DNA of 64,000 bases from NCBI RefSeq assembly GCF_014651375.1, contig NZ_BMWT01000001.1, forward strand, positions 186,001 through 250,000, written 5' to 3'. The notes below the pieces were generated by a model. It made no database searches. It was not told the origin of the DNA and saw only the letters and a list, made by a program, of their open reading frames with translations. This document shows positions 44,537 to 58,764 of this stretch, one piece after another. Position numbers and translations under genes: made by a program. The first letter of the stretch is position 1. The number at the start of each line of letters is the position of its first letter. The stretch is from Tateyamaria omphalii. Its GTDB lineage: Bacteria > Pseudomonadota > Alphaproteobacteria > Rhodobacterales > Rhodobacteraceae.

Positions 44537-44623
44537 GCCCAGATGGCGGAATTGGTAGACGCGCTAGCTTCAGGTGCTAGTGTCCGTATGGACGTGGAGG
44601 TTCGAGTCCTCTTCTGGGCACCA
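44537..44623 (+). tRNA. tRNA-Leu(CAG)
   Basis: 87 nt including an encoded CCA. The acceptor stem GCCCAGA pairs with TCTGGGC. It has the D-arm GGCGGAATTGGTAGAC, an anticodon loop CTTCAGG with anticodon CAG, the long variable arm TGTCCGTATGGACG typical of class II tRNAs, and the T-arm GGTTCGAGTCC. Confidence 0.97.
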
Positions 44624-44627
44624 AAAT

Positions 44628-44750
44628 CCCGAACAATATGCTGATGTACGCAAGATGGCATTTCGTCGTTTGACCGGCAATCACATGAACGGTTTTGCCG
44701 GGGAACACCTTTAGGGTGAGCCAACTCCCCTCTTCAGGCCATCGTTCGGG
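44628..44750. ncRNA. candidate structured RNA between tRNA-Leu and nasT
   Basis: There are nested complementary segments. The outer P1 is CCCGAAC (44628-44634) with GTTCGGG (44744-44750). P2 is GATGGC (44654-44659) with GCCATC (44738-44743), stacked directly on P1 on the 3' side. P3 is CCGGCAA (44674-44680) with TTGCCGG (44695-44701). P4 is GGGGA (44700-44704) with TCCCC (44726-44730), enclosing CACC/GGTG. No ORF explains it. The strand is unclear: on the minus strand it would end in GTTCGGGATTTT. I do not recognise an RNA family. Confidence 0.4.
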
Positions 44751-44895
44751 AAAAAGCGAACCGATGAATAGACGTCAGCCGCATGCCTATTCGCTAAAAA
44801 CTTAGGCGGAATGGGGCCATTTGCATAGTTTTTGCACGACTTCGTCAATCACTTCGCTAACGGGTACCTCAGTAAATAGAATGTCCCGCCAAATA

Positions 44896-44907
44896 CCTAC
44901 TAGTAGG
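44896..44907 (+). promoter_or_regulatory. palindrome covering the nasT ribosome-binding region
   Basis: CCTACTAGTAGG is a perfect 12-bp palindrome 4 bp before the nasT ATG and includes the only Shine-Dalgarno-like bases. It could be an operator or limit translation. Confidence 0.35.
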
Positions 44908-44911
44908 CAGC

Positions 44912-45496
44912 ATGGAGACTGGCATCCGAATACTAGTCGTCGAACCCGACGAAGACCGGTTGCGCGACATTGTTGATGCTTTGCATGATGCAGGTTGGCA
45001 GGACGTCAAAGCCCTTGCACAAATCTCTGCCATCGCGCGAACGGTAAAAGAGTATGAACCGGAAATCGTGCTTATTGATCTGGCGAACCCTGATCGTGAC
45101 ACGCTTGAGCATATAACGTCAGCAACCGACACGGGCAAAAGGGCCGTCGCGCTTTTTGTAGATCAAACGGATGCGGCATTGACCAACGCAGCGTTGAAGG
45201 CCGGAGTCAGTGCATATGTTGTAGACGGCCTCAAAATGAACCGCATCAAACCGGTGCTGGAAACCGCGATCGCGCGCTTCAAGGTCATCCGCCAGATGCA
45301 ATCAGAACTGGATGCGGCCAAGCAAGCACTGGAAGATCGAAAAACCATCGATCGTGCAAAAGGCTTCCTGATGCGGCAGCGCAAGATGACCGAAGAGGAG
45401 GCCTATAGTCTATTGCGAAAAACGGCGATGGATCAGGGTCGTCGGGTTATTGACGTGGCCCAAGCCCTGGTTACAGCTGCGGACCTCTTGTCATGA
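44912..45496 (+). CDS. nasT: ANTAR-domain antiterminator of nitrate assimilation
   Basis: 194 aa. The receiver-like domain (about 5-120; ILVVEPDEDRLRDIVDAL, EIVLIDLANPDRD) is followed by a coiled linker (QMQSELDAAKQALEDRKTID) and the ANTAR RNA-binding domain (RAKGFLMRQRKMTEEEAYSL, then QGRRVIDVAQAL). Family knowledge: NasT binds paired hexaloop hairpins and prevents terminator formation, and is held inactive by NasS without nitrate. The matching RNA target is visible at 46755-46851, downstream of nasS. It overlaps nasS by ATGA. Confidence 0.93.
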   Translation: METGIRILVVEPDEDRLRDIVDALHDAGWQDVKALAQISAIARTVKEYEPEIVLIDLANPDRDTLEHITSATDTGKRAVALFVDQTDAALTNAALKAGVSAYVVDGLKMNRIKPVLETAIARFKVIRQMQSELDAAKQALEDRKTIDRAKGFLMRQRKMTEEEAYSLLRKTAMDQGRRVIDVAQALVTAADLLS

Positions 45497-46626
45497 CCCG
45501 TTCTGTGCTGAATTGCGGGTACGTCGCCCTTGTGGACAGCGCTCCGCTGATCATCGCTCAGGAACTTGAGTTCGCGGCAGAAGAAGGGGTTGAGCTCAAT
45601 TTGGTTCGGCAGCCCTCTTGGTCGGCCTTGCGCGATATGCTGGCTTTGGGTCATCTGGATGCGGCACAAATGCTGTCGCCCATGCCGGTTGCCATGTCTT
45701 TGGGTATGGGAAGTTTGCCGGCAAAAATAGATGCGCTGATGGTACTTTCCGTGAATGGAACTGCTTTCGGCGCGTCAAACAGGTTGTCCGCTCGGCTTGA
45801 TGGAGTCCCCTTTGGTGACCCGGGCGCAATCCTGAAAGCAATCGCCAAACGGGTCAGCGGCCCCATACGCATTGGTGTCCCATTCCATTTCTCAATGCAC
45901 CGCTTGCTTCTGTCCTACTGGGCCTCGACCTTGCCTGAGTTGCAAATCGAGGAAGTGACTGTGCCCCCTCCCCGGATGGCTGACGCAGTGGCCGATGGGC
46001 ATGTGGATGCTTTCTGGGTTGGTGAACCTTGGGGCAGCGTTGCTGTGCAGCGCGGTGTGGCACAGCTGCTAATGGCGGGACGAGACGTTTGGCAGTTTGC
46101 ACCTGAAAAGGTCCTCGCTGCACGTCATGACTGGATTTCGCAAAATGAATTGGAGGCCCGTGCGCTGATGCGTGCGGTTTATCGTGCCGCCGGATGGTTG
46201 GATGCCAATCAAAACAAACCGCTGGCTGTCGAGATCCTAAGTCGCAGTGAGCATCTTGATCTTCCGGCTGAACTTATCGATCCGGCGGTCACCGGCCACA
46301 TCACACCAAAGATCGGCACTGCTCCTGTTCAGATCCCAAGGTTTCTACACTTCCACAAGTTCGCGGCAAACTTTCCGTGGCGCAGTCAAGCAGCATGGAT
46401 TGCCAGGCAACTCGGGGCTGATGGAGCTGGCATTCAAGGCGCCAAGACCTGCTTTCGAAGCGATCTTTATCGGCGACATCTTTTTGGTGTGAATGCTGAC
46501 CTTCCCGGCGCGTCGGAGAAAGTCGAAGGAAGCTTGAAGTTTGAAACGGCTGTCGCGTCCACTCGTGGCCATATGATTCTTGCACCTGACGCCTTCTTCG
46601 ACGGCAGCACCTTCGATTTTAGCTGA
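45493..46626 (+). CDS. nasS: nitrate sensor, NrtA-like cytoplasmic binding protein
   Basis: 377 aa, with no signal peptide. It belongs to the NrtA/CmpA substrate-binding fold (LNCGYVALVDSAPLIIAQEL, HLDAAQMLSPMPVAMSLGMG, DAFWVGEPWGSVAVQRGVAQ). The lack of an export signal and the coupling to nasT (4-bp overlap) identify it as NasS, which binds nitrate or nitrite in the cytoplasm and releases NasT. It is related to NrtA encoded just downstream, a clear sensor/transporter duplication. Confidence 0.9.
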   Translation: MTRSVLNCGYVALVDSAPLIIAQELEFAAEEGVELNLVRQPSWSALRDMLALGHLDAAQMLSPMPVAMSLGMGSLPAKIDALMVLSVNGTAFGASNRLSARLDGVPFGDPGAILKAIAKRVSGPIRIGVPFHFSMHRLLLSYWASTLPELQIEEVTVPPPRMADAVADGHVDAFWVGEPWGSVAVQRGVAQLLMAGRDVWQFAPEKVLAARHDWISQNELEARALMRAVYRAAGWLDANQNKPLAVEILSRSEHLDLPAELIDPAVTGHITPKIGTAPVQIPRFLHFHKFAANFPWRSQAAWIARQLGADGAGIQGAKTCFRSDLYRRHLFGVNADLPGASEKVEGSLKFETAVASTRGHMILAPDAFFDGSTFDFS

Positions 46627-46651
46627 TTTTTGATGAATTCTTGGGCAATTG

Positions 46652-46685
46652 CTGCATTGCCGCAAAATTCCGTGCTGCAATGCAG
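46652..46685. repeat. inverted repeat at the start of the nas leader
   Basis: CTGCATTGC (46652-46660) and GCAATGCAG (46677-46685) are perfect 9-bp arms with a 16-bp spacer, 25 bp after the nasS stop. This may be an operator for the nrtA promoter or a hairpin at the nasTS transcript end; the T-run behind it is poor. Confidence 0.45.
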
Positions 46686-46754
46686 TCATTCTTTTGCATT
46701 CGGCTGTCCGTTTGGTGAAAGTGATCTCAACAGGGCATTGGCGTCCTAGAACAC

Positions 46755-46802
46755 GCATCCGCCAGCGTTGGCAGGTGCAACACTTCAAGAGCAAAGCCGC
46801 TC
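46755..46802 (+). promoter_or_regulatory. ANTAR (NasT) target: tandem hexaloop hairpins
   Basis: P1 has arms at 46755-46763 and 46770-46778 (nine pairs, one C-A mismatch) closing the hexaloop AGCGTT (46764-46769). P2 has the stem GAGC/GCTC (46789-46792, 46799-46802) closing the hexaloop AAAGCC (46793-46798). Both loops have A at position 1 and G at position 4, the known ANTAR RNA signature. The linker is about 10 nt. P2 shares its loop and 3' arm with the following terminator stem, so the two are mutually exclusive. Confidence 0.85.
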
Positions 46803-46851
46803 GTTTAGAACACGGACCTCCTCCCCCGTGACCTAAACGCGCGGCTTTTTT
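46793..46851 (+). terminator. leader terminator of the nrt-nir-nas operon
   Basis: The 5' arm AAAGCCGCTCGTTTAG (46793-46808) pairs with 46833-46848 over 16 positions with one mismatch, and runs into T6 (46846-46851). The loop holds a second stem CACGG/CCGTG (46811-46815, 46826-46830). It lies 39 bp before nrtA and is the expected attenuator relieved by NasT. Confidence 0.9.
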
Positions 46852-46889
46852 CATTTGTGCCCCGGAAGGGCGGAAAAAGGAGACCATAG

Positions 46890-48260
46890 ATGAAAACCTT
46901 GCGTGCAATCGCACTCGCAACAACCAGCCTGATCGCCACATCGGCTTCGGCTGAACTGTTGGACCTCGAGAAAGAAGACCTCACCTTCGGCTTTATCAAA
47001 CTGACGGATATGGCCCCTTTGGCTGTCGCATATGAACTGGGCTACTTCGAAGACGAGGGGCTGTTTGTCACGCTCGAAGCGCAGGCAAACTGGAAAGTCC
47101 TTCTTGATGGCGTAATCAGCGGGCAACTGGATGGCGCGCATATGTTGGCAGGCCAACCGTTGGCCGCGACGATTGGCTACGGCACCGAGGCTCACATCAT
47201 CACGCCATTTTCCATGGACCTGAATGGCAACGGTATCACCGTGTCGAATGAGATATGGGAAGAAATGAAACCCAACGTGCCGCTGATGGATGACGGGCGA
47301 CCACAGCACCCAATCAGCGCCGCCGCCTTGGCACCCGTCGTCGAAGACTACAAAGACCAAGGCCTGCCGTTCAATATGGGCATGGTGTTCCCGGTCTCTA
47401 CGCACAACTACGAAATTCGCTACTGGCTGGCTGCTGGCGGTCTTGAGCCCGGATATTACAGCCCGCAGGACATCTCGGGCCAGATTGGCGCTGATGTTTT
47501 GCTTTCGGTGACACCTCCGCCGCAGATGCCTGCGACAATGGAGGCCGGTACAATTTACGGTTACGCCGTGGGCGAACCTTGGAACCAACAGGCTGTCTTT
47601 AAGGGCATCGGCGTTCCCGTGATCACCGACTACGACATGTGGAAAAACAACCCGGAAAAGGTTTTCGGTCTCACGAAAGAATTCGCGGAAGAGAACCCGA
47701 ACACGACGCTGGCTTTGACCAAGGCATTGATCCGCGCGGCGATTTGGTTGGATGAAAACGACAATGCAAACCGTCCTGAAGCGGTCGAAATCCTGTCCCG
47801 TTCCGAATACGTCGGAGCAGATTACGACGTGATCGCAAACTCAATGACGGGTTTCTTTGAGTTCGAAAAAGGCGACGTGCGTCCAGCGCCAGACTTCAAT
47901 GTCTTCTTCCGTTACAATGCGACGTACCCGTTTTATTCCGACGCAATCTGGTACCTGACACAGATGCGCCGCTGGGGCCAAATCCCGGAGACGAAGTCGG
48001 ATGATTGGTACTTTGAAACCGCGGCAGATGTGTATCGCCCGGACATCTACCTGAATGCGGCGCGTCTGCTGGTGGATGACGGTCTGGCAAACGAAGCCGA
48101 CTTCCCCTGGGACAGTGACGGTTTCAAAGCAGCAACACCCGCGACCGACATCATCGATGGTATTCCCTATGACGGTCGTACCCCGAATGCGTACATCGAC
48201 AGCCTGCCCATCGGCCTGAAGTCAGGGCAGATCATCGTGGACAGCGAAATCCAAGGATAA
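46890..48260 (+). CDS. nrtA: nitrate/nitrite ABC transporter substrate-binding protein
   Basis: 456 aa. The signal peptide is [21 protein letters not shown]. The NrtA/CmpA fold follows: [60 protein letters not shown]. It is periplasmic (soluble or anchored) and delivers nitrate to NrtB and NrtCD. AAAAGGAG lies just upstream of the ATG. Expression is controlled by the leader attenuator. A hairpin follows the stop codon. Confidence 0.93.
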
Positions 48261-48336: not shown

Positions 48337-49410
48337 ATGACCGCGATTGGCTCTCACACTTACGACGCAGAAGCACGCCGCGCGCGAAGTTTTGCCCGCA
48401 TAAACAAAGCCGACGCATGGTTCCGCGTGCTGGGCCTTGCTTGGCTGACCCCAATTCTAAAGGCCGCCGCTGGCGACAATCCGAAAGCGCAAATCGGTGA
48501 GATTTGGCGACTGCTGGGGGTTCCGCTCGCCGCGATTGCCGCTTTCCTGATGTTGTGGGCCTCGCTGGCGCCACAGGTTCAGACATCGCTTGGCGCAATT
48601 CCCGGTCCGGTCGAGGTCTGGGAACAGGTTGGCGAGCTGCGTCAGGACGCGATCCGGGAAGGTGAAAAAGAGATCGCATTTTATGAGCGCCAGGAGGCGC
48701 GGAATGTCGAACACATCTCAAATGGTGATACCGATAAGGTTCGCAATCGCGTCTACACAGGCAAGCCAACCTACTACGACCAAATCTGGACATCGATCAA
48801 AACCGTCTTCTTTGGCTTCCTCATCGCGTCCGTTGTTGCAATACCCTTGGGCATCGCGGCGGGCCTGTCAGTGACAGCGAACGCCGCATTGAACCCGTTG
48901 ATCCAAGTCTTCAAACCGGTTTCACCGCTGGCTTGGCTGCCGATCGTGACCATGGTTGTGTCTGCCGTTTACACAACAAATGATGGAATGTTTTCGAAGT
49001 CTTTCCTGATCTCTGCCATCACGGTGACGCTGTGTTCGCTCTGGCCAACGCTGATCAACACCGCGCTTGGCGTCAGCAGCATCGACAAGGATCTTGTGAG
49101 CGTCAGCCGAGTCCTGAAAATGAACACCTACACAAAGATCACCAAGCTGGTTTTGCCGTCCGCGCTGCCACTGATCTTCACCGGACTGCGCCTGTCTCTT
49201 GGCGTTGGATGGATGGTGCTGATCGCCGCGGAAATGCTGGCCCAAAATCCCGGCCTTGGCAAATTCGTCTGGGATGAATTCCAGAATGGGTCGTCCCAAT
49301 CTCTCGCCCGCATCATGGTGGCTGTCTTCACCATTGGCGTCATCGGCTTCCTTTTGGACCGCGTGATGTACGCGCTGCAGTCGATGTTCACATTCTCAAA
49401 CAACCGGTGA
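48337..49410 (+). CDS. nrtB: nitrate ABC transporter permease
   Basis: 357 aa. A hydrophobic helix near 65-85 is followed by a hydrophilic loop and a BPD_transp_1 domain (about 145-350) with the EAA-type region VSVSRVLKMNTYTKITKLVL, then PSALPLIFTGLRLSLGVGWM. It is an inner-membrane permease pairing with NrtA and the fused ATPase. It is longer than cyanobacterial NrtB because of the N-terminal extension. Confidence 0.92.
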   Translation: MTAIGSHTYDAEARRARSFARINKADAWFRVLGLAWLTPILKAAAGDNPKAQIGEIWRLLGVPLAAIAAFLMLWASLAPQVQTSLGAIPGPVEVWEQVGELRQDAIREGEKEIAFYERQEARNVEHISNGDTDKVRNRVYTGKPTYYDQIWTSIKTVFFGFLIASVVAIPLGIAAGLSVTANAALNPLIQVFKPVSPLAWLPIVTMVVSAVYTTNDGMFSKSFLISAITVTLCSLWPTLINTALGVSSIDKDLVSVSRVLKMNTYTKITKLVLPSALPLIFTGLRLSLGVGWMVLIAAEMLAQNPGLGKFVWDEFQNGSSQSLARIMVAVFTIGVIGFLLDRVMYALQSMFTFSNNR

Positions 49411-49415
49411 TCTGA

Positions 49416-51080
49416 ATGAGTTTTCTGTCCTTCAAAGACGTCTCAAAGAACTACGGGGATACGCCGGTTCTGAACGGCATCAATTTGGATGTTTCAGACG
49501 GTGAGTTCGTTGTCATCCTTGGATTCTCCGGCACCGGTAAGACCACTTTGGTCAATCTTATGGCTGGTCTGGAAATGCCGACATCTGGAACCATCAGCTA
49601 CAAGGGTGAGCCGATCACTGAGCCCGGGCGCGAACGCGGGGTGATCTTCCAAAGTTACTCGCTGATGCCGTGGCTGACGGTAAATGGAAATGTGGCGCTC
49701 GCCGTCGACACGATGTTCCCCAACTTGTCGAAACAGGAACGTGCGGACAAAGTTGACCACTACGTCAAGATGGTCGGCCTGAGCCACGCAACCTCGCGCC
49801 GACCTACGGAGTTGTCTGGCGGAATGCGCCAACGGGTAAACGTGGCGCGCGCACTGGCCATGGATCCGGAGATGCTGTTGCTGGACGAACCATTGTCCGC
49901 GCTTGACGCACTGACCCGCGCCAATCTTGCTGATGAAATCGAAGCAATTTGGGACAAAGACAAGAAAACATGTGTTCTCATCACGAACGATGTAGACGAA
50001 GCGATCATCCTCGCTGACCGTATCATTGCGCTGAACCCGGACGGTACGCTGGGCGAAGAATTCGCGGTGTCGATCCCCCGCCCTCGCGACCGGATGGAGA
50101 TGAACAATAACGAGACCTTCAAACGCTTGCGGCGCGACGTGACAAAATACCTGATGGATGTGGGTATTGAAGCCAAGGTCGAAGGCTCTCGCTCACTACC
50201 GGATGTCACGCCGATCCATGGAATCCCTGCGGCAGTTGCCGACGCACAGAAAGGAATGATCCAAAACCGGTTCCTGGATTTTTCTCAGCTCGACAAGGTC
50301 TATCCCACACCCAACGGCCCGCTGACGGTGGTCGAGAATTTTGACCTCAAGGTCGATAAGGGTGAATTCATCTCTCTGATTGGCCACTCAGGTTGCGGCA
50401 AGTCCACCGTCCTCACAATGGCCGCCGGGCTGAACGAAATCTCGAAAGGGGGCATTCGTTTGGATGGTCGCCATGTCGAGGGAGCGGACCCGGAACGCGC
50501 CGTGGTGTTCCAGTCTCCCAACCTCTTTCCATGGCTCACGGCCAAGGAAAACGTCGCCATCGGCGTGGACAAGGTCTATCCCAAGGCATCGCAAGCCGAA
50601 CGCCAGGACGTCGTCGAATTCTATCTTGAGCGCGTAGGTCTTGCGGACAGCATGGACAAGTCCGCCAACGACCTCTCGAACGGGATGAAGCAACGTGTCG
50701 GTATCGCGCGCGCTTTTGCCTTGTCACCCAAACTGCTTTTGCTCGATGAACCTTTCGGCATGCTGGACAGCTTGACCCGTTGGGAACTGCAGGAGGTTCT
50801 TATGGAGGTGTGGTCGCGCACCAAAGTGACAGCAATCTGTGTGACACATGACGTTGACGAGGCGATCCTGCTTGCCGATCGCGTCGTGATGATGACGAAC
50901 GGCCCGCAGGCAACGATTGGCAAGATCGTTGACGTTGACCTGCCGCGACCACGCACGCGCAAGGCGCTGCTCGAACATCCGGATTACTACAAGTACCGGC
51001 AGGACGTGCTCGATTTCCTTGAGGAATACGAACACGGCGCAAAGCCCAAACCATCACCCAAAGCCATAGCAGCGGAGTGA
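49416..51080 (+). CDS. nrtC: nitrate ABC transporter, fused double ATPase
   Basis: 554 aa holding two complete ABC ATPase domains. The first (about 1-260) has Walker A GFSGTGKTT, signature LSGGMRQRVNVARAL and Walker B LLLDEPLSALD. The second (about 285-540) has Walker A GHSGCGKST, signature LSNGMKQRVGIARAF and Walker B LLLDEPFGMLD. This merges the roles of NrtC and NrtD in one chain, without the extra binding-protein domain of cyanobacterial NrtC. It is 5 bp after nrtB. Confidence 0.93.
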   Translation: MSFLSFKDVSKNYGDTPVLNGINLDVSDGEFVVILGFSGTGKTTLVNLMAGLEMPTSGTISYKGEPITEPGRERGVIFQSYSLMPWLTVNGNVALAVDTMFPNLSKQERADKVDHYVKMVGLSHATSRRPTELSGGMRQRVNVARALAMDPEMLLLDEPLSALDALTRANLADEIEAIWDKDKKTCVLITNDVDEAIILADRIIALNPDGTLGEEFAVSIPRPRDRMEMNNNETFKRLRRDVTKYLMDVGIEAKVEGSRSLPDVTPIHGIPAAVADAQKGMIQNRFLDFSQLDKVYPTPNGPLTVVENFDLKVDKGEFISLIGHSGCGKSTVLTMAAGLNEISKGGIRLDGRHVEGADPERAVVFQSPNLFPWLTAKENVAIGVDKVYPKASQAERQDVVEFYLERVGLADSMDKSANDLSNGMKQRVGIARAFALSPKLLLLDEPFGMLDSLTRWELQEVLMEVWSRTKVTAICVTHDVDEAILLADRVVMMTNGPQATIGKIVDVDLPRPRTRKALLEHPDYYKYRQDVLDFLEEYEHGAKPKPSPKAIAAE

Positions 51081-51085
51081 ATGAC

Positions 51086-53521
51086 ATGACTAAGAAACTG
51101 ATTGTCATCGGCGCTGGTATGGCCTCGGGCCGCGCGCTCGAACACTTGTTCGATGCAGGTGGCGACTATGACGTTACCCTGTTCAATGCAGAACCCCGCG
51201 GCAACTATAACCGCATCATGTTGTCACCCGTGCTGGCGGGCGATCAGACGTACGAAGAGATCGTGACACATGATGACGCCTGGTATGCCGAACACAACGT
51301 GACCTGCAGGTTCGGCGAAGCGATCACACGGATTGACCGTGACAAAAAGACAGTAACCGCGGCAAACGGCGACGTTCTGCCTTATGACAAGTTGCTTTTC
51401 GGCACCGGTTCGAACCCGTTCATCATCCCCCTTCCCGGCCATGATCTGGAAGGTGTGATCGCCTACCGTGATCTTGATGATACCGAGCGCATGATGGCGA
51501 TGGGGCCCGACAACAAAGTCGTCGTCATTGGCGGTGGTCTGCTGGGCCTGGAGGCAGCCGCAGGAATGGCTGCGCGGGGCGCCGACGTGACCGTCGTGCA
51601 TATCATGGGCCACTTGATGGAGCGTCAGCTTGACGAAGCAGCCGGCTACCTGCTTCGCAAGGCGCTGGTCGACAAGGGCATCACCGTGCTGTGCCAAGCA
51701 AACTCGAAAGAGATTGTAGGCGATAACGGCCATGTCAAAGCGTTGATCCTTGATGATGGCACCGCGTTGCCCTGTGACCTCCTGGTGATGGCGGTGGGCA
51801 TCCGTCCAAATGTGGCCTTGGCGCAGGACGCTGGATTGGCCGTTGGAAAAGGCATTCATGTAGACGATCAGATGCTGACCTCCGATGAACACGTACTGGC
51901 CGTCGGGGAATGCGTGGAACACGACGGCGCAGTCTTTGGTTTGGTCGCCCCGCTTTACGATCAGGCCAAAGTTGTCGCGAAAACTCTCATGGGTGAACAA
52001 GGCGCCTTTATTCAGAAAGAGTTGTCGACCAAACTGAAAGTCACAGGGTGCGACCTGTTTAGTGCGGGTGACTTTGCCGACGGAGACGGAAGAGAAGACA
52101 TTGTTTTCCGCGATCCAGCGCGTGGCGTCTATCGCCGCTTGGTGATCAAAAATAACGTAGTCATCGGTGCGGTCATGTACGGCGACACGACGGACAGCAA
52201 CTGGTTCTTCGGCCTGATCAAAGACAAAGCCGATATCTCCGATATGCGTGATACGCTCATCTTTGGTCCGGCTTATCAAGGGGGGACCCCCCTGGACCCT
52301 TTAGCGGCTGTTGCAGCCTTACCGCCTGAGGCGGAGATCTGCGGCTGCAACGGAATCTGCAAAGGTGACATCGAAGAAGCGATCACAGCAGGCGCCACGG
52401 ATCTCGGCGCCATCAAAGCCACAACAAAGGCGTCCGCCTCTTGTGGCACTTGCACAGGCCTCGTCGAACAGGTGTTGGCCGTGACTTTGGGTGATGATTT
52501 CACAGTCCCCACCACGCAATCCATTTGCGGCTGCACGGATATGACGCACGAAGACGTGCGCCGCATGATCAAGAGCCAAAAGCTGACCTCTATGGCCGCT
52601 GTTTGGCAGGAGTGCGGATGGAAGACCTCTTGTGGCTGTCACGTTTGCCGTCCAGCTCTGAACTTCTACCTGCTGGCCGATTGGCCCTTGGAATACCAGG
52701 ACGACCCGCAAAGCCGGTTCATCAACGAACGCAAGCATGCCAACATCCAGAAGGACGGCACCTTTAGCGTCGTGCCTCGCATGTGGGGCGGGATCACAAC
52801 GCCAAACGAGCTTCGCGCCATCGCCGATGCTGCCGACAAATACATGGTACCGACAGTGAAGGTCACCGGTGGCCAGCGCATCGATCTTCTGGGTGTCAAA
52901 AGCGAGGATCTGCCGGACATCTGGGCAGACCTGAACGCGGCAGGCATGGTTTCTGGCCACGCCTATTCCAAAGGTCTGCGCACGGTCAAAACCTGCGTCG
53001 GCACCGATCATTGTCGCTTCGGCACCCAAGACAGCACTGGTCTTGGGATCAAGCTGGAAAAAGAGCTTTGGGGATCCTGGACACCGCACAAGCTAAAGCT
53101 TGCCGTCTCGGGCTGCCCGCGCAACTGCGCTGAGGCGACTTGCAAAGACATCGGCGTCGTATGCGTCGACAGCGGTTTTCAAGTCAGCATTGGCGGCGCT
53201 GCCGGAATGGATGTGAAAGAGACAGAGCTTCTGGTGCAAATCCCGACGGAAGAAGAAGCCGTTTTGGTCATTAAGGCGGTTACCCAGCTTTATCGCGAAA
53301 ACGCCAGATATCTGGACCGCATCTACAAATGGATGGGGAAGGTCGGGCTCGACTGGATCAGAGAGCGCATTGTCGAAGATCTGGACGAACGGGCTGAATT
53401 GGTTGCGCGGTTCGAGCTGAGCCAATCCATCTATCGCAAGGACCCTTGGGCCGAGCATGCCAATACCAAGGCTGACCGATATCGCCCGCTTGCAAACTTG
53501 GCGCTGGAGGCTGCGGAATGA
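51086..53521 (+). CDS. nirB: assimilatory nitrite reductase (NADH) large subunit
   Basis: 811 aa, reducing nitrite to ammonium. It has an N-terminal FAD/NADH module (KLIVIGAGMASGRALEHL, VVVIGGGLLGLEAAAGMAAR), two BFD-like [2Fe-2S] segments (CGCNGICKGD with CGTCTG; CGCTDMTHED with SCGCHVCRP), the ferredoxin-like half domains, and the siroheme-[4Fe-4S] ligands CVGTDHC and SGCPRNCAEATC. The ATG at 51086 is preferred (AGCGGAG 8 bp upstream) over a GTG at 51077 that overlaps nrtC. Confidence 0.95.
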   Translation: MTKKLIVIGAGMASGRALEHLFDAGGDYDVTLFNAEPRGNYNRIMLSPVLAGDQTYEEIVTHDDAWYAEHNVTCRFGEAITRIDRDKKTVTAANGDVLPYDKLLFGTGSNPFIIPLPGHDLEGVIAYRDLDDTERMMAMGPDNKVVVIGGGLLGLEAAAGMAARGADVTVVHIMGHLMERQLDEAAGYLLRKALVDKGITVLCQANSKEIVGDNGHVKALILDDGTALPCDLLVMAVGIRPNVALAQDAGLAVGKGIHVDDQMLTSDEHVLAVGECVEHDGAVFGLVAPLYDQAKVVAKTLMGEQGAFIQKELSTKLKVTGCDLFSAGDFADGDGREDIVFRDPARGVYRRLVIKNNVVIGAVMYGDTTDSNWFFGLIKDKADISDMRDTLIFGPAYQGGTPLDPLAAVAALPPEAEICGCNGICKGDIEEAITAGATDLGAIKATTKASASCGTCTGLVEQVLAVTLGDDFTVPTTQSICGCTDMTHEDVRRMIKSQKLTSMAAVWQECGWKTSCGCHVCRPALNFYLLADWPLEYQDDPQSRFINERKHANIQKDGTFSVVPRMWGGITTPNELRAIADAADKYMVPTVKVTGGQRIDLLGVKSEDLPDIWADLNAAGMVSGHAYSKGLRTVKTCVGTDHCRFGTQDSTGLGIKLEKELWGSWTPHKLKLAVSGCPRNCAEATCKDIGVVCVDSGFQVSIGGAAGMDVKETELLVQIPTEEEAVLVIKAVTQLYRENARYLDRIYKWMGKVGLDWIRERIVEDLDERAELVARFELSQSIYRKDPWAEHANTKADRYRPLANLALEAAE

Positions 53522-53853
53522 GCGTTTGGATCGATATAGGCGCACTGGAGGATGTACCCCTACGTGGCGCGCGGATGATAAAGACGCCGATGGGCTGTGT
53601 CGCTGTGTTTCGCACCAGCGAAAATGAAGTCTTTGCTCTGGACAATGCCTGTCCACACAAGGCTGGTCCTTTGGCCGAGGGCATTGTGCACGGGAAATCC
53701 GTGACCTGCCCACTGCATAACTGGGTCATCTCGCTCGAAACAGGTGAAGCACAAGGCGCAGACGAAGGTCGCGTTGCAACCTATCAGGCACGCGTAGAAA
53801 ATGAACGCATCCTGCTGGACCGCGCCTTTCTCAGGGCCCGGGTCGCCGCATGA
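53518..53853 (+). CDS. nirD: nitrite reductase small subunit (Rieske-type)
   Basis: 111 aa Rieske-fold subunit. It keeps both iron-sulfur ligand pairs, CPHKAGPL (CxH) and CPLHNW (CxxH), unlike the E. coli-type NirD that has lost them, so a functional [2Fe-2S] centre is likely. It is coupled to nirB and nasA by ATGA overlaps at both ends. Confidence 0.93.
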   Translation: MSVWIDIGALEDVPLRGARMIKTPMGCVAVFRTSENEVFALDNACPHKAGPLAEGIVHGKSVTCPLHNWVISLETGEAQGADEGRVATYQARVENERILLDRAFLRARVAA

Positions 53854-56426
53854 AGTGGACCAAAACCACATGCCCGTATTGCGGCGTTGGATGCGGGGTC
53901 CTTGCCGCGGCAGACGGCTCAATCAAGGGCGACCCTGAGCATCCTGCCAATTACGGGCGTTTATGTTCCAAGGGATCCGCTTTGGGCGAAACCATAGACT
54001 TGGAAGGGCGCCTGTTGCACCCCAAGGTCCATGGACGGAAGAAAGATTGGGACACGGCACTGCACTTGGTCGCTCAAAAATTCAGTGCCGCAATCGCAGA
54101 GCATGGTCCAGACAGCGTTGCCTTCTACGCATCCGGTCAATTGCTGACGGAAGACTACTACGTCGCCAATAAGTTGATGAAGGGCTTTATTGGATCGGCC
54201 AATATCGACACGAATTCGCGGCTTTGCATGGCGTCCTCGGTCGCCGGACACAAACGAGCATTTGGCACTGATACTGTGCCCGGTTGCTATGAGGATTTGG
54301 AACAAGCGGATTTGATCGTACTCGTCGGGTCAAATTTGGCATGGTGCCACCCGGTGCTGTACCAACGCATAGCAGCAGCAAAAACAGCACGCCCGGAGAT
54401 GCGCGTTGTCAATATCGACCCGCGCCGCACTGCCACGAATGAGCTGACAGATCTGCACCTACAGATAAAACCAGACAGCGACGTGGCGCTTTTCAACGGA
54501 CTGCTGACACATCTGGCGGATCAGGGATACGTTGATCATGTGTATGTTGACGCCCATGTGAACGGGTTCAAGGACGCAGTTTCAAAGGCCAGACAATCAA
54601 ACCCGGCTGATACCAATGTTGCAGATACTGACCTGGCCACATTCTACAGCCTATGGGGACGCACTGAGAAAGTCGTAACTGTCTACTCGCAAGGTGTGAA
54701 TCAATCCAATTGCGGCACTGATAAAGTCAATGCGATCCTAAATTGCCATCTCGCCACGGGACGCATTGGCAGACCTGGCATGGGTCCTTTTTCCGTTACC
54801 GGTCAGCCGAATGCCATGGGCGGCAGGGAGGTTGGCGGTCTGTCGAACATGCTGGCCAATCACCTTGAGTTGGGCGACCCGGATCACCGACAGGCAGTGC
54901 AGGGTTTTTGGGACAGCCCCGCCATGTGCTCGAAACCGGGCCTCAAGGCGGTTGATCTGTTTGATGCCTGTGCAAAAGGCGAGATCAAGGCGCTGTGGGT
55001 GATGTCCACCAATCCGGCGGTGTCCTTGCCCAATGCAGATGGAGTAGCCGCCGCCATCCGCAACGTGCCTTTTGTCGTGACGTCCGACATCATCGAAAAA
55101 ACCGACACGAATGATTTGGCACATGTATGCCTGCCCGCAGCTGGATGGGGCGAAAAGAGCGGCACAGTGACCAACTCGGAACGTCGCGTGTCGCGCCAAC
55201 GTGCTTTCCTACCTGCGCCCGGCAATGCACGACCAGATTGGGACATCATCAGCGATGTGGCCAGACGCATGGGATTTGGAGACGCCTTCAAGTACCGATC
55301 GCCCAAAGACGTCTTTGCTGAATATATCGCCTTGGACGCTGCGGCTTCCAGATTTCATCGGGATTTGGACCTGAGCATCTTTGCAGATGCCGATTACGCA
55401 GAGTTGATCCCGACCCGGTGGCCACAAAACGACAAACGCTTCTTTGCGGACGGTCAGTTTTACCACGCAGACCGCAAGGCCAGGATGATCCCGGTGTCGC
55501 AATCCGCCCTAAACAATTCGCGGTTTGAGCTGAACACAGGCCGAAATCGCGACCAGTGGCACACAATGACGCGCACCGGCAAATCACCTCGCCTTGGTGC
55601 GCATCTGGCCGAGCCTTATGTCGAGATCAATCCGCAAGACGCCATGGCGCTCAACGCCCGTTTGGGTGATCTGATCAAGGTCGAAAGCACCTTTGGTACC
55701 GCGCTTTTGCGGGCGCTAATCACGCCGCGGGTCAGCCCCGGCGCGCTTTTTGCGCCCATGCATTGGACGCGGCAACAGGTCGGCCGAGGCACGGTCAACA
55801 GCGTCACGATCCCTTCGACAGATCCTGTTTCCGGACAACCCGCGTTAAAGTCTTCGGCGGTCAAAGCCACGGTCTACCGCGCCAAATGGTATGGCTTTAT
55901 CGCAAGCGCGGCCCACATGATCCCTCAAACACCCTACGCCGCAATTGCACGCAGCCAAACTGGCTGGCAGGCGGAACTTGCCGGTGGGAAAATCCCAGAG
56001 GATTGGGTGAAGGAAGCCCGTCAACTGAGCGGTATTCAAAACGGCGATGCCACATTGTTGGAGGACCCAGTCACAGGACTTCATCGCGTCGCGATTGTCG
56101 TTGGAAAACAAATCGCGGCCCTGTTTTTTTCTGGACGCAAACCTGTGGTTCTATCACGCCCCGCCGCCATTTCATTGATCGGTACACAAAGCTCGGCATT
56201 GGGCGCTTTGGCAGGCCGCGCACCGGCGGATCAACCCGATCCCGGCGCGACAGTCTGTGGCTGTTTCAACGTTGGGCAAAACACACTGCTCGACGCCATT
56301 GCCCAAGGCGCTCGGACCGTTACGGCATTGAGCGAGGCAACATGCGCAGGCACGAATTGCGGATCATGTCGTCCCGAGCTCGCAGCGCTCTTGTCCAAGA
56401 TTCACAAACCCATGGCGGCGGAATGA
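53850..56426 (+). CDS. nasA: assimilatory nitrate reductase catalytic subunit
   Basis: 858 aa molybdopterin enzyme, reducing nitrate to nitrite in the cytoplasm. The N-terminal [4Fe-4S] motif is CPYCGVGCGVLAAAD with the later Cys in GRLCSKGSALG. The Mo-bis-MGD domains include TNSRLCMASSVAGHKRAFGT (Cys Mo ligand region), GVNQSNCGTDKVNAI and TGRIGRPGMGPFSVTGQPNA. The C-terminal molydopterin-binding domain is followed by a BFD-like [2Fe-2S] tail (VCGCFNVGQN, CAGTNCGSCRPEL), as in Klebsiella-type NasA. It is coupled to its neighbours by ATGA overlaps. Confidence 0.95.
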   Translation: MKWTKTTCPYCGVGCGVLAAADGSIKGDPEHPANYGRLCSKGSALGETIDLEGRLLHPKVHGRKKDWDTALHLVAQKFSAAIAEHGPDSVAFYASGQLLTEDYYVANKLMKGFIGSANIDTNSRLCMASSVAGHKRAFGTDTVPGCYEDLEQADLIVLVGSNLAWCHPVLYQRIAAAKTARPEMRVVNIDPRRTATNELTDLHLQIKPDSDVALFNGLLTHLADQGYVDHVYVDAHVNGFKDAVSKARQSNPADTNVADTDLATFYSLWGRTEKVVTVYSQGVNQSNCGTDKVNAILNCHLATGRIGRPGMGPFSVTGQPNAMGGREVGGLSNMLANHLELGDPDHRQAVQGFWDSPAMCSKPGLKAVDLFDACAKGEIKALWVMSTNPAVSLPNADGVAAAIRNVPFVVTSDIIEKTDTNDLAHVCLPAAGWGEKSGTVTNSERRVSRQRAFLPAPGNARPDWDIISDVARRMGFGDAFKYRSPKDVFAEYIALDAAASRFHRDLDLSIFADADYAELIPTRWPQNDKRFFADGQFYHADRKARMIPVSQSALNNSRFELNTGRNRDQWHTMTRTGKSPRLGAHLAEPYVEINPQDAMALNARLGDLIKVESTFGTALLRALITPRVSPGALFAPMHWTRQQVGRGTVNSVTIPSTDPVSGQPALKSSAVKATVYRAKWYGFIASAAHMIPQTPYAAIARSQTGWQAELAGGKIPEDWVKEARQLSGIQNGDATLLEDPVTGLHRVAIVVGKQIAALFFSGRKPVVLSRPAAISLIGTQSSALGALAGRAPADQPDPGATVCGCFNVGQNTLLDAIAQGARTVTALSEATCAGTNCGSCRPELAALLSKIHKPMAAE

Positions 56427-57358
56427 GCCTGGCGCCCTTCATCCAGATCGTCGCCAGGGGCAAAGGGCGCGCCAGGACGATGAGCTTTGAAGAAGCCGAG
56501 GCAGCCATGGCCATCATCCTGAGCGGCAATGCCGCCCCAGAAGCCATCGGCGCTTTGCTCATGGTCATGCGGCTGCGCGGGGAAACCGCCGAAGAAATCG
56601 CAGGTTTCACATCGGCCCTACGAGCCCGTGAAAAAGGCACCATGCCACGCGCTGATCTTGATTGGCCGGTCTATGCAGGAGGTCGCAGCCGAGGTGCTCC
56701 TTTGTTTCTAGTGGCCGCGAGGCTTGTTGCACAAGCAGGCTACACTGTCGCGATGCATGGCTGGAACTCCCATCACTCGGACCATTGTTCGATACGGACG
56801 GTATTAAAATGGGCTGGCCCCGGGGTGCACTACTGCCCACTTGAGACTCTCTGCCCCGAGGCTTTCAGCTTGTTGAAGTTGCGCAGTGTTCTGGGCCTAC
56901 GATCTTGTTTCAACACTGTCTTACGCATGTGGAACCCAAGTGCAGCGCCCGTGACCGTACAGGGCGTATTTCACCCTTCGTACAGAAGCCTTCAAGCGCA
57001 AGCTGCCCGCATACTGGGACAACAAGACCTGACTGTCATCAAGGGCGGTGGAGGAGAATTTGAACGCCACCCCGGCAAGGATATCGCCGTATTTGGGTTG
57101 CGCAACGGCCAGCACGTTGCCGAAACCGCACCCGCCGTTCTGAATGACAAGCGACGCTTGCATGACGTGAATGCGGAGCTCGATCTTGGTGCACTTTGGC
57201 GCGGGCAATGCGTTGATCCATTTGCGGTCGCCACAATCACCGGCACAGCAGCCATTGCCCTGTGGTCACTGCATGACACGCAGACCTTGCCAGAGGCCGA
57301 GACCAAAGCTCGCATGCTTTGGCAAACACGTCATTCCACCGAAAGCCTGAGCGCATGA
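56423..57358 (+). CDS. TrpD2-like (glycosyl transferase family) protein in the nas operon
   Basis: 311 aa. The N-terminal helical part (SFEEAEAAMAIILSGNAAPE, MRLRGETAEEIAGFTSAL) and the later LLKLRSVLGLRSCFNTVLRM, APVTVQGVFHPSYRSLQAQA and VIKGGGGEFERHP place it in the anthranilate phosphoribosyltransferase-like TrpD2/YbiB group. The phosphoribosyl-binding GTGGD and the usual HG(E/A)DGHTA-like block are changed (YAGGRSRGAPLF, MHGWNSHHSDHCSIRTVL), so normal TrpD activity is unlikely. The gene sits between nasA and cysG with ATGA overlaps at both ends. Its role in nitrate assimilation is unknown. Confidence 0.8.
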   Translation: MSLAPFIQIVARGKGRARTMSFEEAEAAMAIILSGNAAPEAIGALLMVMRLRGETAEEIAGFTSALRAREKGTMPRADLDWPVYAGGRSRGAPLFLVAARLVAQAGYTVAMHGWNSHHSDHCSIRTVLKWAGPGVHYCPLETLCPEAFSLLKLRSVLGLRSCFNTVLRMWNPSAAPVTVQGVFHPSYRSLQAQAARILGQQDLTVIKGGGGEFERHPGKDIAVFGLRNGQHVAETAPAVLNDKRRLHDVNAELDLGALWRGQCVDPFAVATITGTAAIALWSLHDTQTLPEAETKARMLWQTRHSTESLSA

Positions 57359-58764
57359 AAACATTCCCTATGTTCCTCCAAATGGCCGATCGCCGCGTTG
57401 TTATCGTGGGCGGAGACGAACAGGCTGCTCAAAAAGCACGCTTGATCTTGAAGACCGAAGCGGATGTCACGTTGCTGGCCCCAAAGCTGGATGCCGAATT
57501 GTCAGGTCTTGTGGCAGCTGGCCGCGTGAAACACGAGATGGGCAATATATCTCCTGCCAGTTTTAGGAACACAGCCCTAACCTTCATCGCAACCGGATGC
57601 CCCGGCGCAGATATGGCCCTACATGCCTTGGCCAAAGAAGGAGGTGCAACTGTCAACGTTGTCGATCAACCCGGCCTTTGTGATGCACTCACCCCTTCAA
57701 TCGTGGACCGTGACCCAGTCATCATCGCGATAGGTACCGAAGGCACTGCGCCTGTGCTGGCACGGCAGATCAAAACCAAGCTTGAAGAGGTCCTTGAACC
57801 GCGCCTAGGGGAACTTGCCGCATTGGCGGGACGTCTACGTACCGCTGCTGCAGCGAGGCTTGGACCGCGCAAGCGCCGAGATCTTTGGCGTTGGGTATTC
57901 AATGAAAGACCGCGCCAACTGTACAAAAAAGGTTCAGAACGAGAAGCGGCAAGGCTGATCAAAACGGCCATCCAAACTGGCAACTTCGGCGACAAGACGG
58001 AAGGGACCGTGAGCCTGGTTGGTGCCGGACCGGGTGCGAAGGACTTGATTACCTTGCGCGGTGTGCAGCGTTTGCAAGAAGCCGACGTGATTTACTACGA
58101 CCGCCTCATCGATCCGGACATGCTGGAATTGGCACGACGAGATGCCGAACGAATTTATGTGGGTAAGGCACCCGGATGTCATTCGTGGCCGCAAGAAAAG
58201 ATAACACGAACGTTGGTTGCAGCCGCTCAGCAAGGAAAACGCGTCGTACGATTGAAATGCGGCGACCCCGGGATTTTTGGGCGCGCAACGGAAGAGACTG
58301 ATGCTCTGAAGAAAAGTGGTGTTCCGTTCGAAATCGTGCCCGGCGTCACAGCTGCATGTGCGGCCGCCGCAAGCGTTGGGAAAGCTTTGACGGAACGTGG
58401 TGCAATTGACACGTTGGTATTCTCAACTGGCCACAATCGGAATGGCCATGTGGTACCTGATGCCGTACGCCATATTGCACCCGGGACTTGCGTCGCACTT
58501 TATATGGCGGTCGGATCGGCATCGCGGTTGGCAAAAGAGGTCGAAGCATCCAATTCGGCAAGTCAGATAAACGTTCAGGTCATCACGAAAGCCGAACGCA
58601 GAGGCCAATGCGACTTTGAATGCAGGCTACAGGATTTGCCGGAAACACTCGCGCGAAACGGCGTCAAAGGAGAAACCATCATTCTGCTTCGGAGACCTTC
58701 GGAAACCAGTCAATCCATCGTGAAAACTGCATCAGTGCAACGGTTACAGCAAGTCGCAATCTAA
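57355..58764 (+). CDS. cysG: siroheme synthase
   Basis: 469 aa bifunctional enzyme. The N-terminal dehydrogenase/ferrochelatase domain has MFLQMADRRVVIVGGDEQAA and NVVDQPGLCDALTPS. The C-terminal uroporphyrinogen-III methyltransferase has VSLVGAGPGAKDLITLRGV, VIYYDRLI, VRLKCGDPGIFGRATEE and VPGVTAACAAAASVGKALTE. It makes the siroheme cofactor of NirB, which explains its place as the last gene of the operon. The start overlaps the TrpD2-like gene (ATGA). Confidence 0.95.
   Translation: MKTFPMFLQMADRRVVIVGGDEQAAQKARLILKTEADVTLLAPKLDAELSGLVAAGRVKHEMGNISPASFRNTALTFIATGCPGADMALHALAKEGGATVNVVDQPGLCDALTPSIVDRDPVIIAIGTEGTAPVLARQIKTKLEEVLEPRLGELAALAGRLRTAAAARLGPRKRRDLWRWVFNERPRQLYKKGSEREAARLIKTAIQTGNFGDKTEGTVSLVGAGPGAKDLITLRGVQRLQEADVIYYDRLIDPDMLELARRDAERIYVGKAPGCHSWPQEKITRTLVAAAQQGKRVVRLKCGDPGIFGRATEETDALKKSGVPFEIVPGVTAACAAAASVGKALTERGAIDTLVFSTGHNRNGHVVPDAVRHIAPGTCVALYMAVGSASRLAKEVEASNSASQINVQVITKAERRGQCDFECRLQDLPETLARNGVKGETIILLRRPSETSQSIVKTASVQRLQQVAI

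Follow-up and report, generated by a model that had tools for sequence, protein, structure and literature searches.

Upstream of its nitrate assimilation genes, Tateyamaria omphalii (family Rhodobacteraceae) carries a leader that raises two questions: whether it is a transcription attenuator controlled by the ANTAR protein NasT and, if so, how many hairpins the switch comprises. The leader lies in the 64,000-nucleotide stretch of DNA analysed here (hereafter the window), within a cluster ordered nasT, nasS, a 263-base gap, nrtA, nrtB, nrtC/D, nirB, a nirD-like ORF and nasA. An earlier note, made from the sequence alone, had read positions 46755-46851 as a complete, two-hairpin NasT/ANTAR antitermination switch and had placed nasT and nasS directly upstream, where we indeed find them:

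44537-44620: tRNA gene upstream of nasT
44912-45496, + strand: nasT, antiterminator with receiver-like and ANTAR domains (Pfam ANTAR; alignment with EutV and NasR)
45493-46626, + strand: nasS, NrtA-like nitrate/nitrite sensor (PF13379)
46890-48260, + strand: nrtA, first gene of the controlled operon
48337-51080, + strand: nrtB and fused nrtC/D
51077-53521, + strand: nirB (TIGR02374)
53518-53853, + strand: nirD-like ORF, named by eye
53850-56426, + strand: nasA, molybdopterin nitrate reductase (with a score under the curated cut-off in the NasA/NasC models)

By eye, we also noted a siroheme-synthase-like gene at 57319-58764, 3' of nasA and within the window.

The ANTAR domain of NasT matched PF03861 in Pfam at 74.9 bits, the sole ANTAR match found genome-wide, and its receiver domain scored below the Pfam cut-off. 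NasT could be aligned with EutV over residues 6-187 and with NasR over residues 105-190. EutV has been reported to contact RNA through R142, K143, K147, K149, E160, Y164, R168, M172, N173, R175 and R177 (PMC8934654); if the EutV chain numbering is assumed to be shifted by 2, the NasT residues at these 11 positions read R K R K E Y R M D G R in the same order, N173 and R175 being replaced by D and G. NasS, whose nearest solved relatives are nitrate transport proteins, supplies the NrtA-like sensor gene adjoining nasT that marks a NasS-NasT system, and we count NasT as apparently keeping the receiver-like and ANTAR domains and the RNA-contact residues of this type. The locus resembles that of Paracoccus denitrificans, a member of the same taxonomic order, both in having nasTS upstream of the nas genes and in its ANTAR regulator; in that organism, nitrate or nitrite is reported to dissociate NasS from NasT, and NasT, oligomeric once released, binds the nasA leader RNA (PMC3795266).

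Within the leader we distinguish four elements (loops in brackets):

46732-46747, + strand: H1, distal hexaloop hairpin AGGGC[ATTGGC]GTCCT, loop 46737-46742, recognised from fold and comparison
46755-46778, + strand: H2, the first hairpin of the earlier note, GCATC-C-GCC[AGCGTT]GGC-A-GGTGC, loop 46764-46769
46789-46802, + strand: P2, antiterminator hairpin and the second of the earlier note, GAGC[AAAGCC]GCTC, loop 46793-46798
46793-46851, + strand: intrinsic terminator, arms 46793-46808 and 46833-46848, T6 at 46846-46851

The two tandem hairpins described earlier, with their six-base loops AGCGTT and AAAGCC each carrying A at position 1 (A1) and G at position 4 (G4), are thus present in the sequence, and also in the predicted folds. 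So is the overlap claimed for the second of them: 46793-46802 is common to P2 and to the 5' arm of a terminator whose 16-position stem, made of 15 pairs and one T.C mismatch (46801/46840), runs into T6. H2 and P2 are joined by a 10-nt linker (46779-46788), which falls within the 5-12 nt of the eut leaders bound by EutV, the leaders that define the two-hairpin ANTAR motif (PMC3369931), and within the 2-25 nt reported for a later search for ANTAR targets. What the earlier note overlooked in calling the switch complete is H1, which lies 5' of the segment that it described, 7 nt from H2 (linker 46748-46754) and 41 nt from P2, and whose hexaloop likewise has A1 and G4. The core pair of an ANTAR target is complete here, but the leader is not one of only two hairpins; we count it as a variant of the two-hairpin motif because of the third conserved hexaloop, H1.

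The start of nrtA comes only 38 bases after the T-tract, which places the promoter necessarily 5' of the terminator; a promoter scan of 44700-47000 returned no sigma-70-like promoter. Between nasS and H1, we noted by eye an inverted repeat at 46649-46684, CTGCATTG...CAATGCAG, which is a possible regulator site or part of a promoter.

The folding check proposed in the earlier note, on 46740-46860, gave a structure that beat 200 of 200 shuffles (z -4.64), and extending the segment to 46720-46860 did so as well (z -5.72). The predicted fold holds H1 together with H2 and P2. The case for H1 comes from comparison rather than from folding energy, since 46720-46806 on its own had only a modest advantage over shuffles (z -1.89, with 11/200 shuffles at least as good). 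In predicted nascent transcripts running from 46720 and lengthened in steps of 4, P2 was formed in those ending between 46804 and 46840 and lost from 46844 on, displaced once the 3' arm of the terminator had been made. Forcing P2 in the full leader cost 12.8 kcal/mol, so a bound protein would be needed to keep it. P2 and the terminator are therefore mutually exclusive in the folds, which bears out the structural half of the mutual exclusion proposed earlier; its other half, that NasT binding is what excludes the terminator, would hold by analogy with related systems.

Taken by itself, a pair of A1/G4 hairpins is no rarity over 64 kb. As raw counts without a shuffle control, the window has 28 such close pairs on the + strand and 20 on the - strand with stems of at least 3 bp, and 3 and 4, respectively, with stems of at least 4 bp. 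A simple terminator scan (loops of 3-8 only) missed the leader terminator, and scanning 44700-47000 gave 4 terminator-like sites where 2.7 were expected. With the bare motif common and the terminator absent from the simple scan, comparison with relatives had to decide. The Rfam comparison suggested in the earlier note came back empty: at gathering scores the tRNA alone matched in the window, with no ANTAR-type family, and at relaxed thresholds 46600-46900 gave five sub-threshold matches (best E 0.54), none of them ANTAR-type. What raises the H2-P2 pair above chance is its overlap with the terminator, its position and its conservation.

To compare leaders, we used the window NasT as a query and took the best 80 of 256 matching loci. 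An NrtA relative of >60% identity lies downstream in 76 of these 80, and 79 have their own NasS. The exception, L051 (4001-6435), has nasT, an intact-looking leader and nrtA without a nasS match of its own between them, and its NasT might act without its inhibitor. Including the window there were 81 leaders, 78 of which had a P2 anchor; the three that did not were Paracoccus leaders (L098, L102, L104) and were set aside. A hexaloop scan of the 78, with the slot for H1 set at 42-62 and that for H2 at 14-36 bases 5' of the P2 loop, pointed to three hairpins, not two. The best-scoring H1 had A1 and G4 in 72/78 leaders, whereas the best-scoring H2 had A1/G4 in 34/78 and G1/G4 in 13/78, with the proviso that choosing the best-scoring hairpin picks a non-homologous one in a few leaders (e.g. 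L054). A fixed rule with a wider slot and C-G closing detected H1 in 66/78 leaders, compared with 1.1 in dinucleotide shuffles; an earlier, too narrow slot had given 48/78 against 5.8, or 46 against 1.8 when a 5' closing C was demanded. A rule for the H2 slot (A or G at position 1, G at 4, loop of 6 or 7, at least 3 bp, 5' closing C) was satisfied in 62/78 leaders against 7.0 in shuffles. Kinship inflates these and all the other counts given here.

From 69 non-redundant segments we aligned 22 leaders, picked for window-like spacing. G4 is present in 22/22 for each of the H1, H2 and P2 loops, while A1 is present in 22/22 for H1 and P2 and in 16/22 for H2; the closing pair of H1 is C-G in 22/22. 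The H1 loop is thus more conserved than the H2 loop, and the A1 of the first hairpin of the supposedly complete switch turns out to be the least conserved of the three. A stronger hold on G4 than on A1 fits the report that EutV stacks directly on G4 (PMC8934654).

Covariation, on which the earlier note had staked its reading, was found in these homologous leaders. In the 22 leaders 90.0% of cells were paired, compared with 79.7% after shuffling (reached by 0/500 shuffles), and the covariation score was 0.331 against 0.162 (again 0/500), with slid registers scoring 0.05-0.11. The number of pairs changed on both sides was 9 against 7.0 and was reached by 40/500 shuffles, which makes this one measure weak; such changes affected 6 of 7 pairs in H2, 2 of 5 in H1 and 1 of 4 in P2, whose inner pairs hardly vary. 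Compensatory change is strong for H1 and H2 and slight for P2. For H1 we extended this to 73 distinct leaders (the 78 less 3 near-identical ones and 2 with no G4 hairpin in the H1 slot), aligned without gaps on the H1 loop: pairs 2-6 beat 1000/1000 shuffles and pair 7 all but 4. Pair 2 is G-U in 15 of the 73, which points to H1 being an RNA element rather than a DNA palindrome. The base common to the outer pair of P2 and the terminator varies with both partners, as G,C,G in 42/75 leaders and A,T,A in 3/75, being unpaired in the terminator in 30/75; the terminator partner was picked for best pairing, so these counts lean towards structure. The three A,T,A leaders (L039, L040, L042) look closely related, and their change may be one event.

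Covariance model R1, which requires all three hairpins, found the leader in 70 of the 81 sources at E <= 0.01, 22 of these 70 being its seeds. In the genome of the window itself it returned one site at 63.8 bits, the next best scoring 19.0 bits (E 0.16), and neither R1 nor an exact P2-plus-terminator pattern, whose 1 match was the leader itself, gave a second site there; given that R1 demands three hairpins and the exact pattern is narrow, two-hairpin targets could escape this search. Among 198 genomes of the family, R1 matched 43 at E <= 0.01. All 43 are among the 82 genomes that have NasT at E <= 1e-20, and none among the remaining 116, an overlap with a chance of about 6e-21 if genomes were independent. 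Of 46 R1 matches, 41 lie 1.0-1.6 kb 3' of nasT on the same strand. R1 had no match in 39 of the 82 strong-NasT genomes, having been built from leaders like that of the window and run with strict filters. Together with the ANTAR domain encoded upstream, the covariation and this association support the NasT/ANTAR antitermination reading of the earlier note at the level of sequence.

One genome, G071, holds two further R1 matches. At L210 (2028-2129), about 227 kb from nasT, P2, a terminator and upstream hairpins stand ahead of a gene named by eye as siroheme-synthase-like, similar to the one 3' of nasA in the window; this R1-matching leader is likely a second NasT target of the same build. The other, L211, was taken as a chance match: it has no clear terminator and lies immediately 3' of a long ORF. 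Genome G156 also has one further R1 match.

Outside the family, we looked for NasT in 241 genomes from the same class and 299 from the same phylum, and took 79 NasT regions. Under a strict rule requiring P2 to overlap a terminator, 36/79 loci yielded 44 candidate leaders, some of them surely false, and 43/79 loci yielded none. Upstream of the 44 candidates there was at least one C-G closed A1/G4 hexaloop in 35 (1.6 shuffled) and two in 11 (0.02 shuffled). By a positional rule that accepted either A or G as the first loop base, a distal hexaloop (-70 to -40) was present in 24/44 (1.44 shuffled), a proximal one (-29 to -15) in 22/44 (0.64) and both in 9/44 (0.04), the two together thus being missing from 35/44. 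Among 21 hand-picked far, Paracoccus and relative loci, R1 matched 3 at E <= 0.01. On these comparisons, the distal hairpin is not peculiar to the family of the window, and the full set of three hexaloops recurs outside it, though far from universally under the positional rule. Some of these regions have features of their own. L154 and L198 have two and three separate P2-plus-terminator candidates, respectively, within one 13 kb NasT region, which suggests several attenuators per cluster. L129 (P2 loop at ~7973) has three hexaloop-like hairpins upstream of P2, two under a stricter rule, and is perhaps a four-hexaloop array. In L124, L132, L142, L143 and L149 we saw by eye TGGCAC-like and TTGC-like elements 5' of the first hexaloop, resembling a sigma-54 promoter.

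The nasA leader of P. denitrificans has two named hairpins, HI at 137 bp and HII at 91 bp upstream of nasA; a 3-bp change in HI is reported to reduce expression severely, and mutation of HI in the chromosome to abolish growth on nitrate, while a change in HII made little difference with nitrate and raised the low expression in ammonium twofold (PMC5424462). In strain HAMBI_2443 (L205) we found three G4 hexaloops, the third with G at position 1, whose loops start 155, 130 and 107 bp upstream of the inferred start of nasA; a likely terminator follows them. The published distances fit best with HI as the second hexaloop and HII as the terminator, bearing in mind that the strain may differ, and for this reason an equation of HI with H1 was dropped. 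The first hexaloop would then seem to lie outside the published mutants. Unlike the window leader, the two Paracoccus leaders L205 and L206 have three hexaloops of which none clearly overlaps the arm of the likely terminator, and their antitermination hairpin may be of another form.

With the eut leaders, the window leader shares A1/G4 hexaloops, a second hairpin overlapping the terminator and a linker of about 10 nt; it differs in having three hexaloops rather than two, and its sensor is the binding-protein-like NasS rather than a histidine kinase. An extra single hexaloop has been reported in the EutX small RNA, so that more than two hexaloops are not unheard of. With NasR and the nasF leader of Klebsiella, it has in common that an ANTAR domain governs antitermination of a nitrate assimilation operon in response to nitrate, the difference being that NasR is a one-component NIT-ANTAR protein; SELEX enriched loops closed by C-G and carrying A1 and G4 (PMC7496416, PMC3369936). 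In the NasT/ANTAR literature covered here, comprising search listings and passages of the papers cited, we found no description of a third hexaloop.

The three hairpins, the conflict between P2 and the terminator, the covariation and the association with NasT are shown by sequence and comparison, and we consider it highly probable that the leader as a whole is a NasT-controlled transcription attenuator built as an array of three hexaloops. By inference from P. denitrificans, Klebsiella NasR and EutV, the nitrate signal, NasT binding and readthrough would work as follows. Without nitrate, NasS would keep NasT and RNA polymerase would halt at the terminator; once nitrate or nitrite is present, NasS would free NasT, whose ANTAR domains would bind G4 hexaloops as the leader is being made. 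The first to be transcribed, H1 followed 7 bases later by H2, would capture or recruit NasT, which would then hold P2, made 10 bases after H2 and taking up the 5' arm of the terminator, allowing readthrough into nrtABC-nirBD-nasA. For EutV, successive capture has been proposed, by a recruitment hairpin and then an antitermination hairpin (PMC8934654), and the same scheme could extend to three hexaloops; alternatively, two cooperating NasT dimers might occupy the array. H1 is probably a NasT site, and its role as an extra site for loading NasT is the least supported part of this reading.

If H1 were a separate element, for example a palindrome at the DNA level, a hairpin that stabilises the 5' end or a site for some other regulator, then H2 and P2 would form a classical two-hairpin ANTAR switch. 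Their layout is textbook, two hairpins have been reported to be enough for full NasR binding (PMC7496416), and H1 could hardly serve alone as a classical P1 given its distance from P2, as lengthening the P1-P2 linker by 20 nt abolished antitermination by EutV (PMC8934654). That distance may overstate the separation, since a folded H2 would bring H1 closer to P2 than 41 bases imply. Moreover, H1 fits the ANTAR signature better than H2 does, with A1, G4 and C-G closing all in 22/22 leaders, it covaries and does so with G-U pairs, and distal hexaloops recur in the leaders of other families; we consider this alternative unlikely.

The position of the terminator directly 3' of nasS, and the abundance of bare A1/G4 hairpin pairs, would also suit a plain terminator of nasTS, with hairpins of no regulatory role. 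The operon transcript must nevertheless cross that terminator, given the short gap before nrtA, and the hairpins covary and accompany NasT, which makes this explanation very improbable. Slimmer still are the chances that a leader peptide or a small-molecule riboswitch causes the attenuation: short ORFs are present in the leader, but those of at least 20 aa that start within it on the + strand all begin with TTG, and no Rfam family matched the leader at its gathering score.

The type of system, NasST acting through a two-hairpin ANTAR motif, is already known, and what the window leader adds is the third hexaloop. Tentatively, NasT leaders of Alpha- and Gammaproteobacteria might commonly be arrays of three or more ANTAR hexaloops, in which NasT is handed over from H1 to H2 to P2 or two dimers cooperate, so that the recognition unit would be an ordered array and not a pair. 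An ANTAR dimer might bind paired hexaloops both at once or, as proposed for EutV, successively (PMC8934654). Under simultaneous binding of two loops a conserved third hexaloop has no obvious use, whereas capture and transfer, or the loading of a second dimer, would give it one, and a natural three-hexaloop leader thus helps to separate these models. Searches for two hairpins capture no more than part of such leaders, and R1 provides a model for finding the NasT leaders of Rhodobacteraceae.
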